From NCBI GenBank assembly GCA_025060105.1, contig JANXCS010000003.1, positions 211,341 to 275,340 of the forward strand: a DNA stretch of 64,000 bases, given 5' to 3'. Below the pieces are notes generated by a model. It did not search any database. It saw nothing but the letters and a program-made list of their open reading frames with translations, and was not told the origin of the DNA. Below, in pieces: positions 15,505-21,386 of the stretch. Within the stretch, counting starts at the first letter, position 1, and each line of letters opens with the position of its first letter. The DNA is from Pseudothermotoga sp. GTDB lineage: Bacteria; Thermotogota; Thermotogae; Thermotogales; DSM-5069. A program made the translations under genes and the position numbers.

Positions 15505-16803
15505 ATGAGGGTGTACATCAAAACCTATGGATGCCAGATGAACGAGAGCGACACAGAGACGATGGCTGGCATACTTTCACACGAAGGATTCGAGATCGTC
15601 GACGATGTAGAATCTGCGGACGTAGTCATACTGAACACCTGTGTCGTTAGACAAAAATCGCAGGACAAATACCATTCGGCACTCGGGCAGCTCGTCAAAC
15701 TGAAAAAGCAGGGGAAGATAAAGTTAATAGGCATCGCGGGCTGTGGTTCCAACCTCGAAGGAGAAAGATTGTTGCAACTCGGTGCCGATTTCGTCATAGG
15801 GTCTCGTTCGATAGTCGAGATCGCCAACGTGCTCAAGCGTGCCGTCGAAGGCGAAAAGATAGTCTATCTTGAAGACAGAACGTGCGACATCGTTGCAGAT
15901 TTGCCAAAGTTACGCAGTACGAAGCACCATGCGTGGATAACGATCATACACGGATGCAACAGATTCTGCACCTACTGCATCGTTCCTTACGTGCGTGGCC
16001 GTGAACGGAGCAGGCCCATTCAGGACGTGCTGAAGGAGATCGAAGGTTTGACCCAGCAAGGCGTCATCGAGGTCACTTTTTTAGGTCAGAACGTGGATGC
16101 GTACGGAAAAGATTTGAAGGATGGAACGAGCCTAGCGAAGTTGATAGAGGAAACGAGCGAGTTCGATCGAATAAAACGCATCTGGTTTTTGACCTCCTAT
16201 CCCACAGACATCACCGACGAGTTGATAGACGTCGTTGCGAACAATCCGAAGGCTGCAAAGTCGTTCCACATACCAGTACAATCTGGTAGCGATCGCATCC
16301 TCAAGTTGATGAACCGTCGTTACACTTCGGCGCAGTTTTTAAAGCTTGTAGAAAAGATTCGCTCGAAGGTTCAAGATGTCGCGATCAGCAGTGATATCAT
16401 AGTGGGTTTTCCCACCGAATCGGAAGAAGATTATCTTCAAAGTGTCGAGTTGGTACGCCAAGCCAGGTTCGAACGTTTGAATCTGGCCGTTTATTCCCCA
16501 AGACCAGGAACGGTCGCGGCGAAGTATTATCCAGACGACGTGCCGTACAGTGTGAAGGTGAAGAGACTGAACGAGTTGTTGAATCTACAAAAGCAGATCA
16601 ACGCGGAGCTGAACCGGTCTTATTTGAACCGGACTGTGGAACTGTTCGTCGAAGGCAAAACGAAGGATGGCTCCCACTATGGACGTGACATTAGAAACAA
16701 GATCGTGATCTTCACGGCTGAAAAGCCATTGCAACCTGGTGAGTGCGTTCGCGTGAAGATAGACCGGGTCACGGCAGGCCCAGTGTATGGAAAGATGATT
16801 TAA
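15505..16803 (+). CDS. miaB: tRNA-2-methylthio-N6-dimethylallyladenosine synthase
   Basis: A 432-residue radical-SAM methylthiotransferase that adds the 2-methylthio group to i6A37 of tRNAs reading U-starting codons. The N-terminal UPF0004 domain supplies Cys10, Cys46 and Cys80 for the auxiliary cluster, the radical-SAM motif CNRFCTYC gives Cys151, Cys155 and Cys158, and a TRAM-like domain occupies roughly the last 65 residues. ATG at 15505 gives the conserved N-terminus [14 protein letters not shown], but no ribosome binding site precedes it, because the rpsB terminator T-tract lies immediately upstream. Translation may need a short or leaderless transcript. MtaB-type paralogues are less likely because the opening GCQMN is typical of MiaB. 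Confidence 0.93.
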
Positions 16804-16811
16804 AAGAAAAT

Positions 16812-16831
16812 GCGGACCCAGGTGGGTCCGC
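16812..16831 (-). terminator. Hairpin terminator in the convergent miaB / cDPG-synthetase space
   Basis: GCGGACCC and GGGTCCGC form a perfect 8-bp stem. On the minus strand it is followed by ATTTTCTTTT, so it fits best as the terminator of the leftward gene ending at 17026; it could also stop miaB transcripts weakly. The rest of the 222-nt space contains only a small inverted repeat, TGTAAC/GTTACA at 16895-16914, of unknown meaning. Confidence 0.65.
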
Positions 16832-17025
16832 TAAAGCCGTGGGGGGTGTATCTCAAGGGGGATAGGGGGGTCCTGATTCACTTTCCAACTACATTGTAAC
16901 GGTTCCAAGTTACATTATCTATCAGTTTAGGTTCCTATGTGACAACGTTTGTGTTAACAAATCTCTGACTAAACTGGTCTTACTTTTTCCTTCCGTTATA
17001 TAGACGATCGATCGGTCGAACTGGT

Positions 17026-18363
17026 TCAAACACCTTTCTTCACCCGATGCTTTATGAACTCTGAAAGCACGTCTTCCAAGTTCGGTTTTCCTATCTCCTG
17101 TAGTTCGTACCGCACTCTCACGGCAGGTTTGTTGAGTTTCATGAGCCTCCTCAGATCTATGGGTGTACCTATGATCACGACGTCTGCTTCTGCGTTGTTT
17201 ATTGTTTGTTCCAGTTCTCTTATCTGTCTTTCTCCATAACCCATCGCAGGGAGTATCAGATCCAGATGTGTGTACTTTCTGTACGTTTCCAAGATCGAAC
17301 CGACCGCGTACGGCCTTGGATCCACTATCTGCGATGCACCGAACTTCTTGGCTGCGACGAACCCAGCCCCGTACCGCATTTCCCCGTGCGTTAGAGTTGG
17401 ACCATCCTCCACGATGAGCACTCTTTTTCCTTTGATCAAGCTTGGATCTTCCACGAATATGGGTGAGGCTGCATCGATCACGATGGCGTGAGGATTCCAT
17501 TTTTCAATGTTCTTTCTGACCGTTTCTATGTTCTCTGGACTGGCCGTTTCTTCCTTGTTGATCACCACGACGTTCGCCATGAGCAGGTTGGTCATCCCAG
17601 GATAGTAGGACACTTCGTGCCCAGCCCTGTGTGGATCCGCCACGACTATCAAAAGGTCTGGTTTGTAGAACGGAAAGTCGTTGTTACCACCGTCCCAGAG
17701 TATGACGTCTGGATTTTCAGCCTCGGCGCTTTTCAGTATCGCTTCGTAATCGACTCCAGCGTATATTACAGATCTTCTGTCTATGTGAGGTTCGTATTCC
17801 TCTCGCTCTTCTATGGTGCAGTTGTATTTGTCCAAATCTTCATGCGTTGCGAACCTTTGAACCTTCTGCGCAACGAGGTTACCGTACGGCATGGGGTGTC
17901 TGATGGACACGACTTTCAAACCTTTGGATCTGAGTATGTCGAGCACCCGGCGCGTCGTTTGGCTCTTTCCGCAACCTGTCCTCACCGCACATACGGCCAC
18001 CACCGGTCTTTTCGATTCGATCATCGTGTGCTTCGGTCCCATGAGTTTGAAGTCCGCACCTGCCGCCGTCACTATCGCAGCCCGCTCCATCACGTATTGG
18101 TGCGAAAGGTCGCTGTATGCGAGGATCACTTCATCGACGTTGTACTTTTTGATCAGCTCGACCAACTTCGATTCAGGTTCTATGGGTATTCCGTTTGGAT
18201 AGAGCTTGCCTGCCAGCTCCGGCGGATAGATCCTACCTTCTATGTCCGGTATCTGAGTCGCTGTGAAGGCAACCACTTCGTATTCTTCGTTGTCTCTGAA
18301 GTACACGTTGAAATTGTGAAAATCTCTTCCTGCCGCACCCATGATGATGACTCTCTTACGCAT
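17026..18363 (-). CDS. Cyclic 2,3-diphosphoglycerate synthetase-like P-loop protein (COG2403 type)
   Basis: A 445-residue cytosolic protein beginning MRKRVIIMGAAGRDFHNFN, the hallmark opening of the cDPG-synthetase/predicted-GTPase family. A nucleotide P-loop is visible as CAVRTGCGKSQTTRR near residue 132, with VILWDGGNNDFPFYKPDLLI and VLIVEDGPTLTHGEM further on. In hyperthermophilic methanogens the enzyme makes cyclic 2,3-diphosphoglycerate, a thermoprotective solute and phosphate store; bacterial homologues are mostly unproven. The start is ATG at 18363 with GGAGGTGAT upstream; longer in-frame extensions would include the promoter at 18404-18432. The gene is monocistronic. Confidence 0.78.
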   Translation of the reverse strand: MRKRVIIMGAAGRDFHNFNVYFRDNEEYEVVAFTATQIPDIEGRIYPPELAGKLYPNGIPIEPESKLVELIKKYNVDEVILAYSDLSHQYVMERAAIVTAAGADFKLMGPKHTMIESKRPVVAVCAVRTGCGKSQTTRRVLDILRSKGLKVVSIRHPMPYGNLVAQKVQRFATHEDLDKYNCTIEEREEYEPHIDRRSVIYAGVDYEAILKSAEAENPDVILWDGGNNDFPFYKPDLLIVVADPHRAGHEVSYYPGMTNLLMANVVVINKEETASPENIETVRKNIEKWNPHAIVIDAASPIFVEDPSLIKGKRVLIVEDGPTLTHGEMRYGAGFVAAKKFGASQIVDPRPYAVGSILETYRKYTHLDLILPAMGYGERQIRELEQTINNAEADVVIIGTPIDLRRLMKLNKPAVRVRYELQEIGKPNLEDVLSEFIKHRVKKGV

Positions 18364-18403
18364 CCTGTACATCACCTCCGTGTACGCGTTGCTCGCCTGG
18401 AGT

Positions 18404-18432
18404 AATATACCAATCAAACGACCGTTTGTCAC
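18404..18432 (-). promoter_or_regulatory. Promoter of the cDPG-synthetase-like gene
   Basis: On the minus strand GTGACA (18432-18427) and TATATT (18409-18404) are separated by exactly 17 nt, 40 nt upstream of the start codon. Five of six -35 bases and five of six -10 bases match consensus. The short inverted repeats ACCGT/ACGGT and AAACG/CGTTT overlap the -35 region and spacer and may be an operator. Confidence 0.7.
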
Positions 18433-18498
18433 GGTTGAATCGAAACCTTGGAGAGCCAAAGAAAGACGATCTTTAACCAAAGTGGGTCACTTTTTTCA

Positions 18499-18538
18499 GT
18501 ATGCTCACGTATGCGCAGGTATGCTCGAGTATGCGCAT
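18499..18538 (+). repeat. Four tandem 10-bp repeats in a divergent promoter region
   Basis: Four head-to-tail copies: GTATGCTCAC, GTATGCGCAG, GTATGCTCGA and GTATGCGCAT. All share GTATGC at an exact 10-bp period, with T and G alternating at position 7, so the array is also two copies of a 20-bp unit. It ends 5 nt before the -10 box of the EamA gene and covers the place where a -35 box should be. One site per helical turn suggests cooperative binding of a regulator along one DNA face. Confidence 0.8.
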
Positions 18539-18543
18539 TTTGT

Positions 18544-18549
18544 TATACT
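18544..18549 (+). promoter_or_regulatory. -10 box of the EamA transporter gene
   Basis: TATACT lies 33 nt upstream of the GTG start. At 17-nt spacing the -35 position reads ATGCTC, inside the tandem repeats and unlike consensus, so the promoter probably depends on a factor bound to the repeats. Confidence 0.55.
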
Positions 18550-18581
18550 CTTTTCAGTGCAAGACTTGAGAGGTGGTAATT

Positions 18582-19412
18582 GTGCACTATCTCTATCTGA
18601 TCGTGACGTTGTTTTTCTTCTCTTCGCTGGAAGTTGTCACAAAACCTCTTTCTGGTAGGATCGATCCTTTCTTTCTCACATTTTTCAGATTCTTCGCCGG
18701 TGGCATCTTCTTGACACTCTTTTCGTTGACTTCCAGAAAGAAGATCGAACGGAACGATCTGTCGAAGCTCATCGCCGTGGGTTGTTTGAACGGTGTGATC
18801 TCCATGAGTTTGCTTCAACTGTCCATAAAGCACTCGAACGCCTCCACCGCCGCCACGTTAGTGGCGATGAACCCCTTGTTCGTCAGCGTGTTCGCCCACG
18901 CGTTTGGTAAAGACAAACTGACGAGGAAAGCTATCTTGGCGATATCACTCGGTGCCATCGGGGTTTTGGTCCTCTCTTCGGCCAACGTTGCTGGTGACAG
19001 TCCTTTTGGGATCTTCTGTGGGATAGCAGCTTCGATCACTTTCGCTCTCTACACAGTTCTGATGAGAGATTTTTCCGTCAAGTACGGTGCACTGCTCGCA
19101 ACCTCCATCTCCACTCTCGCCGCCGGCTTGGTCTATGGAGCTCTGCTCGCCGTCTTTGGAAGGCTCTCAGTTCCAAGCTTGAGCTGGCCCGATTGGTCGA
19201 TCCTGCTCTACGTTGGGATCGGCATCACGGGCGTTGCGTACGTCACCTTCTTCAAGGCGATGCAAAGGTTCGGCCCTGTGAGAACGAGCCTCGTGTTCTA
19301 CCTCAAACCTGCCCTCGCGAGCTTTCTCGCAGCGATCTTTCTATCCGAAACCATCAGCGCACAGAAAGTCCTTGGCACGATCATCGTGGTGCTGTCACTC
19401 TTTTTGAGATGA
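18582..19412 (+). CDS. EamA/DMT-superfamily transporter
   Basis: A 276-residue inner-membrane protein with about ten hydrophobic helices in two EamA repeats. The first repeat includes FFLTFFRFFAGGIFLTLFSL and the conserved NASTAATLVAMNPLFV; the second includes GVAYVTFFKAMQRFGPVRTS and ends with the typical LAAIFLSETISAQKVLG. Members export or import small metabolites, amino acids or nucleotide precursors, so the substrate is unknown. The start is GTG at 18582, 6 nt after AGAGGTG; an upstream in-frame GTG overlaps that ribosome binding site. It is driven by a promoter with four tandem repeats upstream. The next gene begins 30 nt downstream and may be partly cotranscribed. Confidence 0.88.
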   Translation: MHYLYLIVTLFFFSSLEVVTKPLSGRIDPFFLTFFRFFAGGIFLTLFSLTSRKKIERNDLSKLIAVGCLNGVISMSLLQLSIKHSNASTAATLVAMNPLFVSVFAHAFGKDKLTRKAILAISLGAIGVLVLSSANVAGDSPFGIFCGIAASITFALYTVLMRDFSVKYGALLATSISTLAAGLVYGALLAVFGRLSVPSLSWPDWSILLYVGIGITGVAYVTFFKAMQRFGPVRTSLVFYLKPALASFLAAIFLSETISAQKVLGTIIVVLSLFLR

Positions 19413-19442
19413 TAATTTGGTATCATTGAATTGGGTTGAAGA

Positions 19443-21386
19443 ATGAAACTGTTGCTCATCATCGCTTTGATGATCTGTTCTTTCTCTTTCTCGATCACCG
19501 TCAGGGTGGGAATCTATGACAATCCACCCCAAGTGTTTCTGTCGAATGGACGTCCAGCTGGCTTGTACATAGAACTGCTCGAGAAGATCGCCAAAGAGAA
19601 CGGCTGGAAACTGAATTATGTTTTTTCTACTTTTTCCGAGCAACTAGAAAATCTGAAGAACGCAAAGATAGACGTTTTGGTCTCCATAGCCTACACGCCT
19701 GAACGTGCTCAGATCTACGATTACAACAACGAAACTCTTCTGCTCAACTGGGGTGTACTCTGCGTCGATGAAAAGTTTCCTTACAGGGACATAACCGATC
19801 TAGCCGGTAAAACGATAGCCATCTCCAGAAGTGATGTTTACGGTCAGGCTTTCATCAAAGAACTACGACGCTACTCCGTGGTGGTCGAACTGCTCGAAGT
19901 TTCAGACTATCCAGACGTTTTACGAGCCATCAGAGAGAAACGTGCAGTCGGAGGGATCGTCAGCAGGATATACGCTGCACAGAACTATGAAAAGTTCAAC
20001 GTGAAGATCACGGGAACGATTTTTTCACCGGTCGAACTGAGATTCGCTTTTCCAAAAGGTTCACCTTTGAACGAAACGTTGATACCTGCCATCGACGAAT
20101 CTTTAAAGGCTCTCAAATCGGATGTAAAGTCTTACTCGGCTCTGCTCGCACGCTATCTTGGAATGGAAAAACAAGTTGTTCCAAGATGGTTGGCCACCGC
20201 TTTTTTGATCTTCGGTATTTCCGCAGTTGGTTTTGCATCCTGGACGATGAGCCTTAGAACGTTGGTGAGATTGCGCACAAAGCAATTGACGAAAGCTAAC
20301 GAGGAATTACAGCAACTTCATGAAGAAACTTTGGCGCAAAATCAAGAAATTTCTGCGTTGAACGAACAACTCCAAAGTACCTTCACTCAACTTGAAGACG
20401 CCGTGAAGAGGTTCACGGACATGATCTGGTTACTCTCCAACGTTTCTGCCGATGCAACGCGTGAAGAGTTCTATGAAAAGTTCCTCTCGGCTACTCAAAA
20501 GCTCTGTCCGAACGGCCGTGTGGTGTTGTTGCAAGGTGATGTTTGTCTTTCAGTGAAAGATGATTCTATCGAGAAGGTTTCACTGAGTAGATCCGTCAAC
20601 GTTCCTGAGGGAATCAGCCAAGTTCCTGAAGAATTCAGCCGAATCGCTGAGAAGCATTTTGGCAGAGCATTTTGTATCAACATCGACGATGAAACGAAAT
20701 TGGTTTTTCTGTACGCAGATAAGCTTCAAATGGAACCTGACCTCGCGAGAGGTCTAGCTTCCATTCTGAGTCTCTATACGAGATTGAAAAAACACGAAGA
20801 AATGCTCGTTTCTTTGAGTGAAGGAATCGCTCAAGCTTTCCTGACAGCGCTGGAATTCCACGAACAGTACACCGCAAAACATTCCGAAACTGTGAAAAAT
20901 TACGCTTCCAAAATGGCGAGGAAGTTGAACTTGGACGAGAACGAAACGAGATTGATCACCTGTGCCGCGATGATCCACGATCTGGGTAAGTTGGCGATAC
21001 CAAAGACCATTTTGAACAAACCGGATAGGCTCTCAGCGGAAGAGTTCGAGCTGGTGAAACAACATCCCGTCGTTGCCGCAGAGATCGTGAAACACATCAA
21101 AGGTCTTGAAGATCTAGCCACCATCATACGCCACCATCACGAAAGGTGGGACGGAACAGGTTATCCCGATGGCCTTGCTGGAGAAGACATACCTTTAGGT
21201 TCAAGGATCATATGTATAGTCGACGCGTTCGAAGCCATGACCTCGGATAGACCATACAGAAAAGCGATGAAGATCGAAGAAGCTATTTCTGAACTTTTGA
21301 GGAACGCTGGAAAGCAGTTCGATCCGCAGCTGGTCAAGATCTTTTTAGAAATACTCTCAGAGGAGAGGGGGGTTGTCTTTGATTAA
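19443..21386 (+). CDS. Periplasmic-binding-domain sensor with HD-GYP phosphodiesterase output
   Basis: A 647-residue membrane sensor. Residues 1-17 are a signal sequence, about 18-245 form an SBP_bac_3 (amino-acid-type) domain beginning TVRVGIYDNPPQVF, 249-268 are a transmembrane helix, and 275-330 a coiled coil rich in Gln, Glu and Leu. A poorly conserved GAF-like stretch follows, then an HD-GYP domain with H512-D513 in HDLGKLAIP, KQHP, and HHHERWDGTGYP at 564-575, so all metal and GYP residues are present. Binding of a periplasmic ligand probably controls hydrolysis of cyclic di-GMP. The gene overlaps the MFS transporter gene, which is followed by a glycosidase, so the ligand may relate to sugar uptake. 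There is only a weak ribosome binding site. Confidence 0.9.
   Translation: MKLLLIIALMICSFSFSITVRVGIYDNPPQVFLSNGRPAGLYIELLEKIAKENGWKLNYVFSTFSEQLENLKNAKIDVLVSIAYTPERAQIYDYNNETLLLNWGVLCVDEKFPYRDITDLAGKTIAISRSDVYGQAFIKELRRYSVVVELLEVSDYPDVLRAIREKRAVGGIVSRIYAAQNYEKFNVKITGTIFSPVELRFAFPKGSPLNETLIPAIDESLKALKSDVKSYSALLARYLGMEKQVVPRWLATAFLIFGISAVGFASWTMSLRTLVRLRTKQLTKANEELQQLHEETLAQNQEISALNEQLQSTFTQLEDAVKRFTDMIWLLSNVSADATREEFYEKFLSATQKLCPNGRVVLLQGDVCLSVKDDSIEKVSLSRSVNVPEGISQVPEEFSRIAEKHFGRAFCINIDDETKLVFLYADKLQMEPDLARGLASILSLYTRLKKHEEMLVSLSEGIAQAFLTALEFHEQYTAKHSETVKNYASKMARKLNLDENETRLITCAAMIHDLGKLAIPKTILNKPDRLSAEEFELVKQHPVVAAEIVKHIKGLEDLATIIRHHHERWDGTGYPDGLAGEDIPLGSRIICIVDAFEAMTSDRPYRKAMKIEEAISELLRNAGKQFDPQLVKIFLEILSEERGVVFD

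Follow-up and report, generated by a model that had tools for sequence, protein, structure and literature searches.

The window, the whole 64,000-nt stretch of Pseudothermotoga DNA that we analyzed, holds an array of four 10-bp direct repeats between two divergent genes (18499 to 18538, forward strand). Each unit is GTATGC plus 4 nts; the units start at 18499, 18509, 18519, and 18529, exactly 10 bp apart, and read, in order, GTATGCTCAC, GTATGCGCAG, GTATGCTCGA, and GTATGCGCAT. Five nucleotides past the end of the array at 18538 is the hexamer TATACT (18544 to 18549), and the last GTATGC core ends 9 nts before it. With the TG at 18541 to 18542, this hexamer forms a predicted extended −10 box (TGn TATACT; 18541 to 18549, forward strand) for a gene encoding an EamA/DMT-type exporter (18582 to 19412, forward strand; likely start, GTG at 18582), the product of which matches PF00892 (E value, 7.7e-41). 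On the other side, on the reverse strand, is a gene (17026 to 18363) whose product resembles cyclic 2,3-diphosphoglycerate (cDPG) synthetases; the array is about 150 bp upstream of this cDPGS-like gene and reads away from it. The predicted −10 box of the gene, TATATT (18404 to 18409, reverse strand), is 89 nts from the near edge of the array, and a 17-nt spacer separates it from a predicted −35 box, GTGACA (18427 to 18432, reverse strand). The only PDB sequences that matched the cDPGS-like protein at an E value of ≤0.01 were three cyclic 2,3-diphosphoglycerate synthetases (best, 3.7e-7), and no Pfam or NCBIfam family was found for it. The repeats, their distance from TATACT, and the two neighbors had been recorded in the initial annotation, and re-reading of the positions and the protein matches bore them out.

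After the EamA gene, positions 19443 to 21386 encode a family-3 solute-binding domain fused to an HD domain (PF00497, PF13487); in other genera, an HD-domain gene precedes the EamA gene in the same direction. A search of positions 16800 to 19500 against Rfam at the gathering threshold gave no matches, and so no riboswitch or other RNA element of that collection was found there.

GTATGC occurs 23 times on the two strands of the window, the four array units included, versus 10.5 expected, and none of 100 shuffles reached 23. Over the 420 bp 5′ of the cDPGS-like gene in this genome (G000), the array score was 18 of 18; the best of 100 dinucleotide shuffles scored 12.

The cDPGS-like gene was matched in 67 of 103 genomes of the phylum, and 66 upstream regions were read (in G087 the gene is split over two contigs, and the genome was left out). 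At 1e-50, there was no match in G006 and G001, which are 81% and 71% complete, respectively. With a three-unit score of at least 14 of 18 as the threshold, 48 of the 66 regions had an array at a 10-bp step, a number in which related genomes are not independent; at steps of 7, 8, 9, 11, 12, 13, and 14 bp, the same regions passed 0, 1, 0, 0, 3, 0, and 1 times, respectively. The repeats are thus tandem, direct, and one helical turn apart. Among regions 5′ of response-regulator genes in the phylum, none passed (0 of 56, these being the loci among 60 that were long enough to score). All 100 dinucleotide shuffles were exceeded in 49 of the 66 regions (9/9 in family f1, 18/18 in f2, 16/16 in f9, 5/5 in f8, and 1/2 in f7). 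The 18 regions below the cutoff were those of f3 (4/4), f10 (8/8), f11 (2/2), f5 (1/1), and f6 (1/1), plus G016 and G084 with scores of 13 each. The array of GTATGC units at 10-bp steps is therefore conserved at the cDPGS-like gene in four families. That the repeats would be conserved upstream of orthologous genes was the point on which the initial annotation had staked its reading, and they are.

At the cDPGS-like gene, a site has 3 to 6 units, a unit being counted when ≥4 of 6 positions match. In the logo, the unit reads G/T-T-A-T-G-C, followed by T/G, a pyrimidine, and two nearly free positions. The core positions carry 0.87 to 2.00 bits and the four spacer positions 0.03 to 0.49 bits, a contrast that is partly circular because the units were chosen by their cores. 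The alternation of T and G after the core, which had been taken for a 20-bp super-period, proved not to be conserved: congeners show it in part (T,G,T in G003 and G005; T,A,T,A in G004), and the order is T,T,T in G002, G007, G008, and G009.

The region before the EamA gene could be read in four members of the genus (G000, G003, G004, and G005; in G006 it is unreadable at a contig end and was left out). All four keep the array and the TATACT box, which is identical among them, and the array contains the longest stretch of the alignment with no variation (15 columns). The distance from array to −10 is 9 or 19 nts in all four, which, as far as sequence can tell, supports the earlier suggestion of a regulator site on one face of the helix, cooperative in appearance, in place of the −35 of the EamA promoter. 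EamA as the main target did not hold up. Its orthologs in other genera follow an HD-domain gene and have no array (0 of 5; scores of 9 to 12), and the array there remains 5′ of the cDPGS-like gene, facing hisI (G002), no near gene (G007), or a pilin-like gene (G008 and G009). Judged by eye, the neighbor on the other side of the array varies among EamA, hisI, pilin, MalE-like, HTH, ThiF-like, and nucleoside kinase genes. The best reading of these comparisons is that the older partner of the array is the cDPGS-like gene and that EamA was probably recruited at the level of the genus. Thus, what stood of the initial interpretation was the regulator site replacing the −35 and its conservation; the super-period and the choice of EamA as the main target fell. 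(The labels hisI, pilin, ThiF, hrcA, IS605, PLC-like, DrrA, and COG1318 are presumptive throughout.)

Several loci have features of their own. In f9 (L143 to L148, L151, L152, L154, and L243), a ThiF-like gene, identified by eye, closely precedes the array and the cDPGS-like gene, and some loci also have a small ThiS-like gene. In g8 (L168, L173, L174, L179, and L268), genes for a KaiC-like ATPase and a small HTH protein are directly upstream of the cDPGS-like gene; relatives of this HTH protein occur in g13. A gene for a MalE-like binding protein is divergent from the array in two settings, by gdh in this genus and by the cDPGS-like gene in g5/g6 (L013, L060, L071, L074, L121, and L166 to L186). 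In G067 (L311, 472 to 2075), two open reading frames (ORFs) that by eye are IS605-like transposases separate the cDPGS-like gene from the two-component genes, which are its direct neighbors in relatives, and the cDPGS-like gene at G025:C57:2728-4050 has one in-frame TAG.

A pattern search of the G000 genome (1.92 Mb) found a second array 5′ of rocD (ornithine aminotransferase; over the TIGR01885 cutoff), with genes for a PLC-like protein, an OmpR-type regulator, and a PhoR/PnpS-like kinase on its far side. A third array, with two good units only, is between gdh (glutamate dehydrogenase) and a MalE-like gene. Two further G000 sites that were read (0 to 1 mismatches; contigs C5 and C2) are both in coding frames. 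The array was present in 10 of 10 rocD upstream regions, covering 10 of the 11 f1 genomes, and in G007, a genome in which the PLC-like gene and the regulator have other locations, it stays with rocD. Several f1 genomes also have repeated TTGCCA/TGGCAA-like motifs 5′ of rocD (L055/L123), perhaps the site of another regulator. The PLC-like gene (identified by eye; no Pfam or NCBIfam family) precedes the OmpR-type regulator and the kinase in this genus (L012, 558 to 3622; L049 to L053); in G002 and G008 to G010, about 3 kb separates the regulator from the PLC-like gene, and in G007 they are far apart.

Scans for three-unit arrays in 103 genomes, among the matches listed (which run to G043, with the sites of f10 and f1 to f3 outside them), and then in eight chosen genomes led to sites before arcA (arginine deiminase), arcB-arcC (ornithine carbamoyltransferase and carbamate kinase), and ord-ortA (ord encodes 2,4-diaminopentanoate dehydrogenase). 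They also led to a dppA-ptb-arcC cluster and to genes for an M20 peptidase and a YfcC-like antiporter, the latter below its cutoff. In G033, an array precedes an operon of FAD oxidoreductases with Δ1-pyrroline-5-carboxylate (P5C) dehydrogenase. Ten further weak sites were read and yielded one more array, before the same first two genes in G038 (L355; score, 14); weak sites in G053 and G049 precede genes that by eye are hrcA-like and had no array at a score of 14. One representative each of arcA, ornithine carbamoyltransferase, arcC, Ord, OrtA, rocD, and P5C dehydrogenase passes its curated NCBIfam cutoff. The motif thus recurs across the phylum before arcA, arcB(-arcC), rocD, ord-ortA, and gdh, a recurrence that was beyond the view of the initial annotation.

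In the eight chosen genomes, 20 distinct sites had at most one mismatch, and 18 of them were read; 17 precede arginine, ornithine, or peptide catabolism genes or cDPGS-like genes, and the other falls in a coding frame. Of 60 loci, 30 were displayed, the rest being further cDPGS-like loci, overlapping matches, or weak matches; among those displayed, L127, L137, L251, and L253 are in coding frames or by unrelated genes. The arc and ord sites come from genomes other than G000. Protein matches supplied the cDPGS-like and regulator sets, but the arc, ord, gdh, and dppA loci were found by matches to the motif; their number is therefore not an unbiased rate, and the evidence is the shared function of the targets. 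In G040, two small XRE-like HTH genes (L352, 94 to 522 and 2680 to 3084) are near a weak array-like site with a score of 14, in that one genome only.

No array was found in 7 of 16 arcB upstream regions, and all seven are within 1.5 kb of a cDPGS-like gene: in G081, arcB is directly behind the cDPGS-like gene, and in six more g7 to g9 loci it is ≤1.5 kb away. These arcB genes may share the promoter of the cDPGS-like gene, and their proximity ties the cDPGS-like gene to the arginine/ornithine pathway. Seven genomes of g32, which we take to be Marinitoga-like and in which the cDPGS-like gene has no match, are rich in arrays (64 overlapping matches versus 6 in controls). In seven genomes of g13, presumably Thermotoga proper, which also has no cDPGS-like gene, arrays were not above the control (3 versus 10). 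A third such label, g27, we take to be Mesotoga-like. A published survey of arc clusters reports none in 15 Thermotogae genomes, according to the row of its table for that group (PMC5300872), which agrees with the separate locations of arcA and arcB in our genomes.

We predicted σ70 promoters downstream of the arrays with a simple score that ignored phase; upstream regions scoring <13 (seven arcB, five EamA, and one PLC-like) are outside the set. From array to predicted −10, the distances are quantized in a 10-bp register in either orientation, at 9, 19, 28, 38, 68, 78, 88, and 98 bp. For the cDPGS-like gene, the −10 is 68, 78 to 80, 88 to 90, or 99 nts from the near edge of an array that reads away from the gene, and 28 nts in f8, where the array reads toward it. 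The values are 98 to 99 for rocD, 98 to 100 for the gdh of this genus, 88 for arcA, 38 for dppA, 9 or 19 for EamA, 68, 78, 88, or 89 for arcB (38 in the flipped case of G075), and 27, 78, 89, or 98 for ord.

On these predicted promoters, 83 of 91 first-choice distances equal 7 to 9 modulo 10, and four more equal 0. Over 17 gene/lineage groups, the mean resultant was R = 0.84, a value reached in none of 200,000 random draws, with the provisos that related sequences are not independent and that periods of 10.0 and 10.5 bp cannot be told apart over these distances. As in a tandem operator, the array thus has a fixed position relative to the predicted −10. Off phase were two first choices, L119 (23) and L248 (26), and two g4 gdh arrays (93 and 103) of ambiguous orientation. 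The genes on the far side of arrays, MalE-like and PLC-like, have a fairly tight phase of about 1 (the malE genes of f2 are more scattered, with R = 0.66). From their spacing and from changes of neighbors, we take them as bystanders, although this evidence is not decisive; since they too are phase consistent, phase is support for targeting, not proof of it.

Promoters with distant arrays (68 to 99 nts from the −10) usually have a −35-like box of their own. The −35 is poor at the EamA genes (9 or 19 nts) and the f8 cDPGS-like genes (28 nts), and both kinds of promoter may be helped by an extended −10. An exception is the ord gene of g32, which has a near array (27 nts) yet a fair −35, TTGACT. 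The missing −35 of EamA may also be tolerated through the TGn extended −10, an element reported, in the part of the study on which we draw, for RpoD promoters of Thermotoga maritima (PMC3636130).

We consider it probable that the phylum has a regulon for arginine/ornithine catabolism with the array as its upstream activating sequence, bound by a cooperative activator on one face of the DNA, and that the EamA gene was recruited to it in this genus. A transcription factor would occupy one face of the helix, its monomers binding one unit each in a cooperative, head-to-tail row, and from that face would activate RNA polymerase carrying σ70. At the near arrays, those of EamA and the f8 cDPGS-like genes, the bound array would stand in for the poor −35. 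In this genus, the array would have gained the EamA gene as its neighbor on the far side, and that gene would use it as well. As the inducer, we presume arginine, ornithine, or a related nitrogen or energy signal. We put forward more tentatively, as a possibility rather than an expectation, that the array is a phylum-wide enhancer of arginine fermentation. It would have variable length, would nucleate a head-to-tail filament of a factor of an undescribed binding family, and would act in either orientation and at a range of helically phased distances; the number of units would tune output, and the cDPGS-like enzyme would be a core step or a sensor in this metabolism.

Other explanations differ in how they fare against these data. 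An array that acts only on the cDPGS-like gene, with EamA as a bystander in this genus, accords with its tracking the cDPGS-like gene and not EamA across families and with its absence from the five EamA orthologs elsewhere. We nevertheless think this unlikely, given the spacing of 9 or 19 nts to TGn-TATACT, with no good −35, in all four readable genomes of the genus and the 15-column invariant run in the array. Nor do we favor, as an unlikely reading, a repressor operator at which cooperative binding upstream of the promoter, or over the −35 of EamA, keeps the arginine-catabolism genes off until their substrate comes. The EamA array does cover the −35 region, so that a protein sitting on it could block polymerase, and position alone cannot separate activation from repression; however, most arrays are 68 to 100 nts upstream of the −10 in a fixed register, as would be those of an activator, and the lack of a good −35 at the f8 cDPGS-like and EamA promoters would be odd for genes that need only repression.

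The OmpR/PhoB-type (DrrA/WalR-like) regulator beside the second G000 array might bind the array, regulate itself, and control EamA. Regulators of this type bind direct repeats, and the second array ends 21 nts before a −10-like box of the PLC-like, regulator, and kinase genes in G000 and its congeners (12 nts in G002 and G008 to G010). These spacings are 2 to 3 nts off the target register, however, and close matches to the regulator (1e-70) occur in 102 of 103 genomes, among them those of g13, in which arrays do not exceed the control; together with the array of G007, which remains before rocD without the regulator, this makes the proposal highly improbable. An array that arose by chance, or a slipped-strand simple repeat with no function, is scarcely conceivable. 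Slippage does make tandem repeats, and the number of units varies from 3 to 6, but the conservation of position and register in four families, the period control, and the shuffles contradict it, as does the free variation of the spacer relative to the core, an argument that is partly circular because units were picked by core.

We rejected other candidates for the binding protein as well. The HTH gene by the KaiC-like gene, next to the g8 array, is present in 20 of 103 genomes and absent from G000. BTAD/SARP activators occur in 28 of 103 genomes but in only 1 of 20 genomes of f2, a family that has arrays. In g5/g6, a regulator gene is convergent with the cDPGS-like gene; at 1e-48, this regulator is in none of the 11 f1 genomes. 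Thus, neither of the two response regulators tried, this one and the DrrA-like one, matches the distribution of the sites. The kinase of a two-component pair near arcB in G029 is only 29% identical to the g5/g6 kinase. When 474 distinct ORFs beside arrays were clustered, a kinase and an HTH gene recurred within f2 only, and no regulator recurred across families.

The pho box has an 11-bp repeat period and replaces the −35. PhoB binds direct repeats in tandem, head to tail, and its modeled dimer contacts subunits of polymerase, according to the portions of two reports used here (PMC3348028, PMC4415409). The array shares with the pho box the tandem direct repeats and differs from it in its 10-bp step, its GTATGC core, its 3 to 6 units, its distances of 9 to 100 nts from the −10, and its two orientations. 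By eye, the pstS region of G000, one genome, and the regulator pair divergent from it have no GTATGC array; this pst region has its own regulator pair, and the idea of a Pho box was dropped. The TorR boxes of Escherichia coli are four decameric direct repeats upstream of a promoter. In this the array is like them, but the core sequence and the genes differ.

ARG boxes are palindromes. Units of the array are direct repeats with no dyad (GTATGC plus four weak positions in the logo), unlike the sites of ArgR/AhrC, although arginine catabolic genes are among the targets in both cases; for ArgR/AhrC, the sections consulted describe arginine-dependent control that includes catabolic genes (PMC4865122). 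Some sites of the IclR family, such as that of PcaU, add a direct half-site repeat to a palindrome, as outlined in the relevant part of PMC8222616. Their boxes alternate in direction, and the units of the array all read one way.

In the parts of the open-licence literature covered, we found no description of the motif or of an arginine-catabolism regulon in the phylum. A word search of a study of carbohydrate regulation in T. maritima (PMC3750489) found no arginine, ornithine, tandem repeat, or direct repeat, and the passages of RegPrecise 3.0 that we draw on (PMC3840689) mention a Thermotogales collection and do not enumerate its regulators. The array offers a defined DNA bait and a list of targets for an orphan regulator, ties an uncharacterized cDPG-synthetase-like protein to arginine/ornithine catabolism, and provides a natural series of phased, flipped, and relocated sites with which to learn how tandem repeats act on promoters.

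BldC of Streptomyces, in the portion of the report used here, forms cooperative head-to-tail multimers on a variable number of direct repeats, with 2 and 4 subunits per DNA shown (PMC5859096). The variable number of direct repeats is common to BldC sites, as described there, and to the array; the BldC sites are 9 bp long with the sequence AATT-N4-C, and the array has 10-bp units of GTATGC. As far as the literature covered shows, the motif and the proposed regulon are new, and the kind of site, a run of tandem direct repeats, is known.
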